The notes below the pieces were generated by a model that saw nothing but the letters and a program-made list of their open reading frames with translations, did no database searches and was not told where the DNA came from. Below, piece by piece: positions 3,569 through 13,796 of a stretch of 64,000 nucleotides of DNA. Origin of the DNA: Kribbella pittospori (GTDB taxonomy: Bacteria > Actinomycetota > Actinomycetes > Propionibacteriales > Kribbellaceae); assembly GCF_004331465.1 (NCBI RefSeq), contig NZ_SJKB01000026.1:1-64000 (forward strand). Direction: 5' to 3'. The position numbers and the translations under genes are program-made. Each line of letters begins with the position of its first letter. Positions within the stretch are counted from its first letter, which is position 1.

Positions 3569-3620
3569 CCGTCGTCCTGCCCGTTCTGACCCGTCTGCTC
3601 GAACTGGAGCTACGGATCTA

Positions 3621-3641
3621 GTGTCATGAGTCATTAATTCG
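3621..3641 (+). repeat. Left inverted repeat of element A
   Basis: GTGTCATGAGTCATTAATTC directly after TA. It differs by only a few bases from the complement of the right end of element B at 5753-5773. Confidence 0.7.
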
Positions 3642-3838
3642 CCGTTAGTTGACACTCTGGTGGGTGCCGAGTCCCAAGGTTGAACCGGTGGTCCGGACTG
3701 ACGAGAAACGTCGGGTGTTGGTGGGGTCGTCGGCGGAAGACGTCTCAGGTGTTGGCGGTGCGGCGCGGATCACATTGCGGTGTGCGGATGGCGGCACGAT
3801 CGGTCGGGGTCGCTGAGGACGTGGGCGTGTCGCGGGAC

Positions 3839-4591
3839 ATGGTGGTGTTTGCGGCTGCGCAGGGTTGGGCGTGTGCGATGCTGCTCGCCGTGGGGAGCCG
3901 CGACGATTACGGGTACGGGTGGCTGTTCGGCCTGGTCGATCCCGCCCCGGCGGTCCGCGCTGCTGCCCTTCGCCGCCGCGAGGCGGACGTCAGTGACTGG
4001 CGGGATGCCCTGGATCGCTGCAACGCGGCGTACTGGGCCAACGGCGGCAGTTTCGACTTCTCGGATTCACCGGCCCTGAGGGCGGCGAGGGACCAGGCCG
4101 AGGCCGCCATGCGGGAAGCCCGGGGCCGTGGCTTCGCTGGCATCCTGTCGGAATTCATCACCGAATGCCGGCCTTTCGGCCGCCGGGATCCCACCGCTCT
4201 GCGCCGTCTCGTGCCGTTCGCCGTGCTCTTCTTACAGTGGGAGGTCGCCTACCCGCAGGATTGGTGTTCGCCGTGGCCGCCATGGGGTCTCAAGAAGGAC
4301 GTCCTACGGGGCCTTGCCAGTATCGAGGTACCCCGAGACTCGCGGGCGGCGCTGGTCGAGTTGGTCGTGGCTGCGGTCCGCCGCGAGCACCGCTGCGAGG
4401 ACCGCGGGTTTGTGCTGTTGGCGCGCCGACTGGACGGGCCTGACCTGCGCAATCCGGTCGCCCAGTGCCTTGACTCGCCCGACCCGATCGTCGGCCTGCG
4501 AGCAGGCTTCCTTCTGGATGTCCTCGCCGATCCGAGCATGCCCGCGACAGTCGCAAGCTGGAAACGCTGGCTGGCATCAACCGCCACGTGA
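3839..4591 (+). CDS. Unrecognised protein, cargo of IS630-like element A
   Basis: About 250 residues from ATG 3839; the open frame extends up to 3680 but that part encodes shifted IS630 transposase remnant. The body is alpha-helical with charged helices and segments suggestive of HEAT-like repeats (PAPAVRAAALRR, DSPDPIVGLRAGFLLDVLADP). There is no signal peptide, membrane helix or catalytic motif that I can identify. The fusion of an IS remnant to a foreign gene at about 3845 probably removed the natural N-terminus, so the first residues are arbitrary. It might be an immunity- or regulator-like helical repeat protein, but I do not assign a function. Confidence 0.5.
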   Translation: MVVFAAAQGWACAMLLAVGSRDDYGYGWLFGLVDPAPAVRAAALRRREADVSDWRDALDRCNAAYWANGGSFDFSDSPALRAARDQAEAAMREARGRGFAGILSEFITECRPFGRRDPTALRRLVPFAVLFLQWEVAYPQDWCSPWPPWGLKKDVLRGLASIEVPRDSRAALVELVVAAVRREHRCEDRGFVLLARRLDGPDLRNPVAQCLDSPDPIVGLRAGFLLDVLADPSMPATVASWKRWLASTAT

Positions 4592-4630
4592 CGCCCACGT
4601 GACGACACCCTCGCCGCCTCTACTGCAGCC

Positions 4631-4673
4631 GAATCAACGGCTCACGACACATATGTCTTGAGTCAATAATTCG
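4631..4673. repeat. Junction of element A right end and element B left end
   Basis: The right end of A (4631-4650, ending CTCACGACAC) is followed within a few bases by TA (4652-4653) and the left end of B (TGTCTTGAGTCAATAATTCG, 4654-4673). The two elements therefore abut, as expected if one inserted at the TA beside the other. Confidence 0.65.
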
Positions 4674-5775
4674 AGGCCAGTCGGAAGGCTGTGGTGATGC
4701 CGAGCCCGAAGGTTGATCCGGTGGTGTGTCCGACGAGGAGCGGTCGGTCCTGGCCGGGTGGGCACGGCGACGGAAACGTCGCAGGCGTTGGCGTTGCGGG
4801 CCCGGATCGTGCTGCGGAGTGCGGACGGCGGCACGATCGGCGAGGTCGCCCACGACGTCGGGGTGTCGCGGAACATGGTGTCGAAGTGGCGGTCGCGGTT
4901 CCTGGCCGATCGGCTGGACTGATTGTCCGACGGGCCGCGTCCCGGCCGGCCGCGGACAATCACCGACGATCAGATCGAGCAGGTGATCACCAAGACGCTG
5001 GAAACCACGCCGGGTGAGGACACGCATTGGTCGACCCGGTCGATGGCTACGAGCACCGGTACGTCGCAGAGCGCGGTGTCGCGGATCTGGCGGGCGTTCG
5101 GGCTGAAGCCGCATGCGGTCGAGACCTGGAAGCTGTCGACCGATCCGTTGTTTGTCGACAAGGTCCGCGACGTCGTCGGGTTGTATTTGAGCCGACCGGA
5201 GAACGCGTTGGTGCTCGCGGTAGACGAGAAGTCGCAGATGCAGGCCATCGACCGGACCGCGCCGATCCTGCCGATCATGCCAACCACGCCGGCGCGGATG
5301 ACCCACGACTACGTGCGCACGGCACGACCAGCCTGTTCGCGGCCTTCGATGTCGGCAGCGGTTCGGTGATCGCCCAGCACAGCCGCCGGCACCGTTATCA
5401 GGAGTTCCTGCGCTTCTTGAAACTCATCGACGCCGCCGTCACGAAGTACCTCGACCTGCATCTGGTGCTGGACAACTACGCCACCCACAAGACCCCCAAG
5501 GTGAAGGAGTGGCTGATCCGCCACCCGAGATTCCACATGCACCTCACCCCCACCAGTAGTTCCTGGCTGAACCTGGTCGAGCGCTGGTTCGCCGAACTCA
5601 CCAACCGCAAACTGCGCCGCTCCGCCCACTGCAGCATCACCGAACTCGAAGCCGACGTCCGCGCCGATCACGAATGGAACGCCGACCCCAAATCCTTCGT
5701 CTGGACCAAGACCGCCGACCAGATCCTCGACACCCTCGCCCCACACTGCCAGCGAATTAACGACTCACGACACTA
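4654..5775 (+). mobile_element. IS630-family insertion sequence B
   Basis: Full-length element of about 1.1 kb bounded by 20-bp imperfect inverted repeats and TA dinucleotides, with a single transposase gene of the IS630/Tc1 type. Because the transposase has three lesions, the element is not autonomous. The ends are well preserved and might still be moved by an intact relative elsewhere in the genome. Confidence 0.8.
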
Positions 5776-5776
5776 G
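4713..5776 (+). pseudogene. IS630 family transposase, degenerate
   Basis: DDE transposase with an N-terminal HTH (GTIGEVAHDVGVSRNMVSKW), a linker (GPRPGRPRTITDDQI) and the catalytic triad in LAVDEKSQ, LVLDNYATHK and SSSWLNLVERWFAE. Three defects are visible. A one-base loss near 4778 breaks the N-terminal frame (element A keeps the intact RRRKTSQ). A glycine codon has become TGA at 4920-4922. A one-base loss near 5316 shifts HDYVR-HGTTSLF. The rest reads normally to the C-terminus inside the right inverted repeat. Confidence 0.85.
5753..5773 (-). repeat. Right inverted repeat of element B
   Basis: CGAATTAACGACTCACGACAC followed by TA; the complement matches the left ends of elements A and B. 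The last codons of the transposase frame run into it. Confidence 0.7.
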
Positions 5777-12038: not shown

Positions 12039-12548
12039 CCCGACTGACCCGCCACCTGCATGAACTTCGGTGTACGGGACGGATCGAGCCCGGGGGAATC
12101 GGCCGTCAGTGCGTGGGCGCGGAGGCTTGATCGCGAGGCAGATGAAGTATGGCCCGAAGGGGGTCAGCTGCACCCTTGGCTGGGAGGTCATCTCGAATCG
12201 CCCGGCGGTGTTTCGCCTGCCTCGGAGGGGTTTGAGTTTAGCGTCGGGCATCTCGCGCGGAACCGGCCAGTTATGCAGGCTCATCGGCCAGCAGGACCCG
12301 GATCGCCGCGCCACGTCCAACGGCACGCTGTCGTGGTTGGTGCTCCAGTCCCAACCGAGCGCCATGTCGCCTGGCGCTCAACTCCGGCACCTGGCTGGTG
12401 TCAGGTGCCACCCGGTCGGGTCCACCGACGGAGTCTGCCACGGCGTTTCGATCAGAACCGTTGAACCGCATGGCGGCGTGGTGCGTAAACGCTACTGGTC
12501 CCGACGGTCGCCCAACCCCGGCGGCGGTCATGAGCGAAGGAGTCCTGG
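12039..12548. other. Intergenic region, no assignable gene
   Basis: About 510 bases. On the minus strand near 12105-12365 a frame reads with some protein-like phrases (ALGWDWSTNHDSVPLDV, RVQLTPFGPYFICLAIK) but lacks a convincing start and continues into antisense of the PAP2 gene. It may be a gene remnant; I cannot name it. Confidence 0.3.
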
Positions 12549-13229
12549 ATGACTTTGACAGCGCGGGTCTGGCGAGGTTTTGGCGCGGTTCTGCTGCTGA
12601 CGGCAGGTGCAGCACCAAATGCGATGGCGGTGCCAACGGACACCACACCACCGACGGCACCGGACAACCTCCACGCGGTGAGCATCACCGACACGGACAT
12701 CGTGCTGGCCTGGGACAAGTCGGCGGACAGCAGCGGGTCCGTGAGCTATGCCCTGTTCTTCGACGACAACCCCACCCCGTTCTGGGTCAGCGGAACACAA
12801 TTCGACGTACACACGAATGTGGTGATCGGCATGATTCCCGGCACCACACACACGTTCCAGGTGCGCGCGGAGGACTCCTCGGGCAACGCCTCCTTCAGCA
12901 ACAAGCTGACCACCTCGTTCGCCCCGGGAGACGACACGGCACCGACCGCACCGGACAATCTGCAGGTCGTGAGCAACAACTCGAACGGAATCGTGCTGGC
13001 CTGGGATCCGTCCATCGACCAGTCCGACGTCATCTACTTCGTCGACGGAGCGCCGTGCTCACCGCACCACGCCGGCAGCGCAACGACACTGCTCGTAGGA
13101 TCCCTCGCCACGGACCCGGTGTGCGGCATCAGCCCCGGTTTCACCTACACCTTCTCGGTCCGAGCCCAGGACGACATCGGCTTCAACTCCCCGTCCAGTA
13201 ACACCCTCAGCGTCTTCTTCAACGGCTGA
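12549..13229 (+). CDS. Secreted protein with two fibronectin type III domains
   Basis: 226 residues. The N-terminal signal peptide (VWRGFGAVLLLTAGAAPNAMA) is followed by two repeats that both begin TAPDNL and contain IVLAWD and TYTF/THTF strands, ending in a SFSNKL/SPSSNTL G-strand. These are typical Fn3 domains as found on actinomycete extracellular glycosidases. There is no catalytic domain, so this may be an adhesin-like or carbohydrate-surface protein, or a domain cut away from an enzyme. Start ATG 12549 is preceded by a GAAGGAG site. Confidence 0.75.
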   Translation: MTLTARVWRGFGAVLLLTAGAAPNAMAVPTDTTPPTAPDNLHAVSITDTDIVLAWDKSADSSGSVSYALFFDDNPTPFWVSGTQFDVHTNVVIGMIPGTTHTFQVRAEDSSGNASFSNKLTTSFAPGDDTAPTAPDNLQVVSNNSNGIVLAWDPSIDQSDVIYFVDGAPCSPHHAGSATTLLVGSLATDPVCGISPGFTYTFSVRAQDDIGFNSPSSNTLSVFFNG

Positions 13230-13295
13230 ACGCTCCCGGGCTCCGGAGAAGCGACACCGATGATGCAGAACATCGATCCGTAAGGAGACTGAGCA

Positions 13296-13796
13296 GTGCA
13301 GATGAGCGAGCCGACAACGATCAACCGCGAACCACGGCCGTATGCCGCAATCACCGCGACCGCTCCGATGAGCCGAATAGGTAGCGACCTGCCGCCGTTG
13401 ATCGGTGAGGTCTTCGGCTGGCTCGCAGCGCGGAACATTCCGCCGGCCGGCGTGCCGTTCTTCAAGTACAACGTGCTCGACATGGAGCGCGAACTGGAGG
13501 TCGAAGTCGGCGTGCCAGTAGGAACCGAGGTGACCGGCGACGCGCGTGTGCGCGGCGGCCTGCTACCGGCCGGACGCTATGCCACCCTCCACCACGTGGG
13601 GCGCCCCGACACCCTCTTTGACGCCACCACCGCTTTGATCGGCTGGGCGCGCGAGCAGGGACTGGATTGGGATGTATCGACCATCGCCGGCCAGGAGCGG
13701 TGGGCCGCTCGCCTCGAGGAATACACCCTCGGACCTGAGGACACACCCGACATGGACAAGTGGGAAACCGACCTGGTGTTCAAACTCTCCGACTGA
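13296..13796 (+). CDS. GyrI-like effector-binding domain protein
   Basis: 166 residues, GyrI/AraC effector-binding (SOUL-like) fold. Recognisable parts are the N-terminal EPRPYAAITATAPMSRIG, IPPAGVPFFKYNVLD, the GDARVRGGLLPAGRYATLHHVG block and the C-terminal TDLVFKLSD. Stand-alone members bind small, often cationic or hydrophobic, molecules, and some hydrolyse cyclopropanoid compounds. GTG 13296 fits an AAGGAG site eight bases upstream; ATG 13302 is the alternative. There is no HTH domain, so it is not itself a transcription factor. Confidence 0.8.
   Translation: MQMSEPTTINREPRPYAAITATAPMSRIGSDLPPLIGEVFGWLAARNIPPAGVPFFKYNVLDMERELEVEVGVPVGTEVTGDARVRGGLLPAGRYATLHHVGRPDTLFDATTALIGWAREQGLDWDVSTIAGQERWAARLEEYTLGPEDTPDMDKWETDLVFKLSD

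Follow-up and report, generated by a model that had tools for sequence, protein, structure and literature searches.

How does an intact gene that bears no relation to transposition come to lie between the two ends of an insertion sequence (IS), and might it have been moved by them? The question is raised by a locus in the 9.49-Mb genome of the actinobacterium Kribbella pittospori, from which we analysed a stretch of 64,000 nucleotides (the window) included in contig C18. A preliminary description of this DNA had proposed two abutting IS630-like elements marked by four matching inverted repeats and TA sites, one of them with most of its transposase gene exchanged for cargo that an IS630 transposase could move in trans.

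Two abutting IS630-type elements

The two IS630-type elements adjoin within window positions 3619-5775, element A occupying 3621-4650 and element B 4653-5773, and both this arrangement and the four repeats are as first described. The elements are bounded by a 21-bp inverted repeat, GTGTCNTGAGTCNNTAATTCG, that occurs four times; a repeat scan places it at 3621-3641 (+) and 4630-4650 (-) for A and at 4653-4673 (+) and 5753-5773 (-) for B. The outermost two have no mismatches to the repeat consensus, and the right repeat of A has two. Measured against the left repeat of A, the four are identical at 17-21 of 21 positions, and nothing elsewhere in the window exceeds 13; with three mismatches allowed, the scan recovered three of the four, against 0.00 expected from 100 shuffles of the window.

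TA sites had also been described, and exact ones flank the outer ends only. They are found at 3619-3620 (also by pattern scan) and at 5774-5775, each within C-TA-G, a context that matches most other aligned right ends and intact copies. At the inner junction (4651-4652) the sequence is AT where TA is expected: it reads GACAC-AT-ATGTC, and a tandem insertion would give GACAC-TA-GTGTC, equal in length and different at three bases. Element A is flanked by TA on its left and by AT on its right, where it adjoins B, and B has an exact TA at its right end and AT-A in place of TA-G at its left.

Element B, on the forward strand, is a full-length, dead IS of the IS630 family; an intact copy from another Kribbella (L057) matches it at 88.7% identity. 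Its transposase pseudogene (4691-5776, +) retains matches to Pfam HTH_32 and DDE_3 (E 4e-15 for the latter) and is broken by an in-frame TGA at 4920-4922 and by frameshifts, such that the NF033545 match falls in two pieces with one TGA. The L057 copy, by contrast, is an IS of 1,131 bp with TA that encodes an intact 363-aa transposase (L057:1003-2094; NF033545, E 1.9e-83), so that an intact cognate enzyme is present in another member of the genus. None was found for the A and B ends in the host assembly. Three other IS630 transposases are open in the host genome; the ends of one (C15:53800) depart from the A/B consensus at 4-5 positions, and the end examined for another (on C54) does so at six.

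Element A joins two IS630 ends to an unrelated gene

In element A, IS homology extends over 3619-3844, is absent from the interior, and resumes at 4603-4650. The breakpoint anticipated at about 3845 is thus exact when A is aligned to other IS copies. The left segment (3621-3844, +) comprises the IS630 left end and the start of the transposase gene, with 77-78% identity to IS copies of other Kribbella, and the right segment (4603-4650, +) is a 48-bp IS630 right end whose junction with the cargo is common to K. pratensis. Both lie on the same strand and in the IS's own direct left-to-right order, and the two terminal repeats are inverted and identical at 17 of 21 positions. The left arm is 77% and the right arm 81% identical to IS copies, and no single parent copy can be assigned. 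Overall, A measures 1,034 bp versus 1,131 bp for the parent IS.

It had been stated that A keeps both ends and the beginning of a transposase gene; both are found, and the transposase remnant is frameshifted, reading from its own GTG start to a stop after about 50 codons. The long open reading frame at 3680-4591 is an accident of frames and incidental. We considered an in-frame fusion of transposase and cargo and rejected it, because the remnant is frameshifted and the K. pratensis reading frame begins at the equivalent of 3878. Between the IS homology and the cargo homology lies a 29-bp stretch (3845-3873, +) with no match in the IS or in the K. pratensis copy.

Several features suggest that A is no longer mobile. 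About 7 of the 48 positions of its right end differ from the K. pratensis copy (hand count), which indicates an end that has decayed rather than been conserved, and given the inexact TA at its right flank and the two mismatches in its right repeat, A is expected to be a fossil now.

The passenger gene

The gene carried by A (3878-4591, +) is intact, with a native start at about 3878, and encodes 237 aa that are 94% identical to the K. pratensis protein. The preliminary description had an unrelated helical protein of about 250 residues; the lack of relationship and the predicted helical character stand, and the length is the shorter one given here. No Pfam or NCBIfam family matches the protein, and no relationship to transposases was found. 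Its AlphaFold2 model is all-helical (pLDDT 86, pTM 0.82). A Foldseek search with this model returned nothing at E <= 0.001, and the structural matches are generic HEAT/ARM solenoids only (best VIA, Z 7.5), so the prediction extends to a fold class, a HEAT/ARM-like solenoid. Our guess would be that the protein serves some accessory system as a solenoid that binds other proteins. PADLOC gave no match to the cargo, and its assignment as a defence-system gene was dropped.

Comparison with the K. pratensis gene gives 15.5 synonymous changes over 184 sites and 15.5 nonsynonymous changes over 527 (dN/dS about 0.34), a ratio that reads as constraint and suggests purifying selection. Counting the host, relatives were found in five out of 38 Kribbella genomes; a sample of 395 genomes of the class added four more. 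We also considered a plasmid or viral gene, a candidate that we rejected: the plasmid search yielded only distant Streptomyces matches (36-38%), and none were found in the viral contigs searched. The search of other genomes that had been recommended as a check led to two kinds of locus, that of K. pratensis, where the gene is accompanied by an IS right end, and those of distant homologues, which, as far as they were read, contain no IS ends. The latter are unlike one another, so that the gene was not encountered in a conserved locus devoid of IS ends, the finding that would have made A an eroded neighbor of a resident gene.

A shared junction in K. pratensis

For the K. pratensis copy (NZ_SODU01000001.1; genome G016, C1:1882734-1883447), DNA homology spans window positions 3874-4646 at 95% identity. 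It extends over the gene, across the junction and into the IS right end, which shares with A a 2-bp insertion missing from other aligned right ends. The K. pratensis right end reads GACTCACGTGGC-TA, with three repeat bases changed and the TA kept, and since the TA persists despite these changes the common ancestor of the two copies probably carried a complete right end.

The surroundings of the two copies are unrelated: 20 kb around the K. pratensis copy and the first 20 kb of the window have nothing else in common. Samples of window DNA compared with the K. pratensis genome gave about 65-75% identity in the longer matches. Set against this background, 95% identity at unrelated sites points to recent horizontal spread of the cargo together with its right end. 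An IS left end was looked for beside the K. pratensis gene and is absent; one candidate (L029:3191, five mismatches) was judged a chance match, as similarly weak matches occur elsewhere. The missing left end is the main weakness of the view that A was a unit.

Other IS630 derivatives in Kribbella

A second gene lies between cognate IS630 ends in the host genome. An epoxide hydrolase gene (EHN domain, E 5.8e-41) is located between two outward-facing ends at L020:3428-5078 (contig C21:25427-27077), which have zero and one mismatches and TA on both sides in a C..G context. The right side is a 70-bp right-end fragment, and on the left lies a miniature element, reversed and some 170 bp long, in which 40 bp of the right end are joined to IS positions 134 to 10. 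Because that miniature element is nearly complete, the case is ambiguous, and the hydrolase gene may possibly have been trapped between two remnants. Its relatives in three other Kribbella are 85-86% identical and their loci share the gene only; no empty site was found in 38 Kribbella genomes, where the insertion flanks are not conserved. By eye, a DUF262/HNH-like gene (L108:6806-8596) and an AlbA_2-like DNA-binding gene (12348-13778) lie nearby and perhaps form a defence island.

In three other Kribbella (L065, L066, L067), miniature elements of the IS630 type, about 165 bp long and flanked by TA at either end, occur several times per genome. Their copy number, related ends and TA flanks are evidence that derivatives lacking a transposase are mobile in the genus.

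Kribbella genomes also commonly contain solo IS630 ends that are truncated, among them right ends of 295, 62 and 96 bp and a left end of 127 bp. On contig C16 of the host (L022:3731-4213) an IS630 right end of 65 bp, with TA, takes the place of the 3' part of an IS110-like transposase fragment; no partner end was found within the 8 kb read. Outside the genus, a 56-bp IS630 left end like that of A is found at the end of a DUF6166 gene on the Mycobacterium avium plasmid pS2b (L144:3001-3058).

Origin of element A

We lean, with modest confidence, towards A being a decayed non-autonomous derivative of an IS630-family element, that is, a mobile insertion cassette carrying a passenger gene, whose two ends would once have formed one unit moved in trans. 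This reading draws on the cognate ends arranged in IS order, the outer TA in its C..G context and the non-transposase cargo, on K. pratensis, where cargo and right end meet at the same junction in unrelated surroundings, on the constraint seen in the cargo, on the hydrolase gene as a second case, and on the multicopy miniature elements. It is also in keeping with work on ISY100, whose transposase needs no other protein in vitro to cut out a kanamycin gene flanked by a pair of ISY100 ends and to insert this mini-ISY100, nearly always at TA (PMC2170065). About 850 bp of the IS transposase gene would have been replaced by the HEAT-like accessory gene with both ends retained; a cognate transposase present in the cell would then have bound both repeats and excised the cassette, which would have inserted into a TA, usually within CTAG. 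Such a cassette would require only two good ends and a cognate transposase. The position of B directly to the right of A is consistent with insertion of that full-length IS, now dead, at A's right-hand TA. The reading is weakened by the K. pratensis copy, which has no left end, by the frequency of solo ends and by the ambiguity of the hydrolase case. The earlier proposal of a passenger-carrying IS630 transposon is retained as the best reading, for the K. pratensis junction and the hydrolase case; among 38 Kribbella genomes we found neither a further two-ended copy of A nor an empty site for the A and B pair, and the DNA beside the insertion has no counterpart in them.

The same facts bear on a different history, in which A never moved as a unit and two IS630 remnants of separate origin trapped its cargo: a fragment of a right end would have joined the gene downstream and travelled with it, and an unrelated left end would have arrived upstream later, in the window lineage. 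The K. pratensis gene, with a right end and no left end, is what this predicts, truncated solo ends of 62 to 295 bp are common, and the two arms of A are not traceable to one parent copy. Yet later loss of the left end also explains the K. pratensis state, and chance would have had to place two remnants around one gene in the same orientation and in IS order, with their outer ends kept and a total length close to the parent's. We regard trapping as a serious possibility that is nevertheless somewhat doubtful. We also weighed whether the whole pair (3619-5775) was the mobile unit, with the B transposase, then active, carrying the cargo in cis. The outer repeats are the best-matching pair (19 of 21) and have exact TA flanks, and the inner ones are the worst (15 of 21) and have none; contrasts this small, a matter of a few bases, count for little, however, and since K. 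pratensis has the cargo and the right end of A without B, and no further copy of the pair was found in the 38 Kribbella genomes, we consider this improbable.

A broader proposal, that Kribbella IS630 elements repeatedly capture single genes (A and the hydrolase case) and that the resulting cassettes, mobilized in trans, recurrently spread accessory genes in soil actinobacteria, is speculative and on present evidence rather unlikely. If both are real cassettes, small actinobacterial IS elements would serve to carry single genes, and accessory genes would have a means of transfer that standard annotation overlooks for want of a transposase; such passengers could be found through paired IS ends rather than through transposases.

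Comparison with known mobile elements

Mobile insertion cassettes (MICs) carry passenger genes between IS ends. From its sequence, A would belong to this already known kind: it is IS-derived, has no functional transposase, and has two cognate inverted ends with an unrelated gene inside. Its ends differ in being IS630-type with TA targets, and A itself is a degenerate form that retains part of a transposase gene and whose mobility is putative. Described MICs, such as MIC231 of Bacillus cereus, are IS-derived and have no transposase of their own, and a cognate IS can activate them (PMC3129680). ISY100 and the IS630-Tc1-mariner group are marked by inverted repeats, TA target duplication and a DDE transposase. 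The locus resembles them in its inverted repeats, in the TA at its outer ends and in the DDE domain of B, the differences being that A has no transposase and that the transposase of B is broken. Finally, transporter ISs are IS copies with added passenger genes that keep their transposase (PMC3129680); A resembles them in having a passenger gene within an IS, but it does not retain an intact transposase gene and so falls outside that class, which combines the two.
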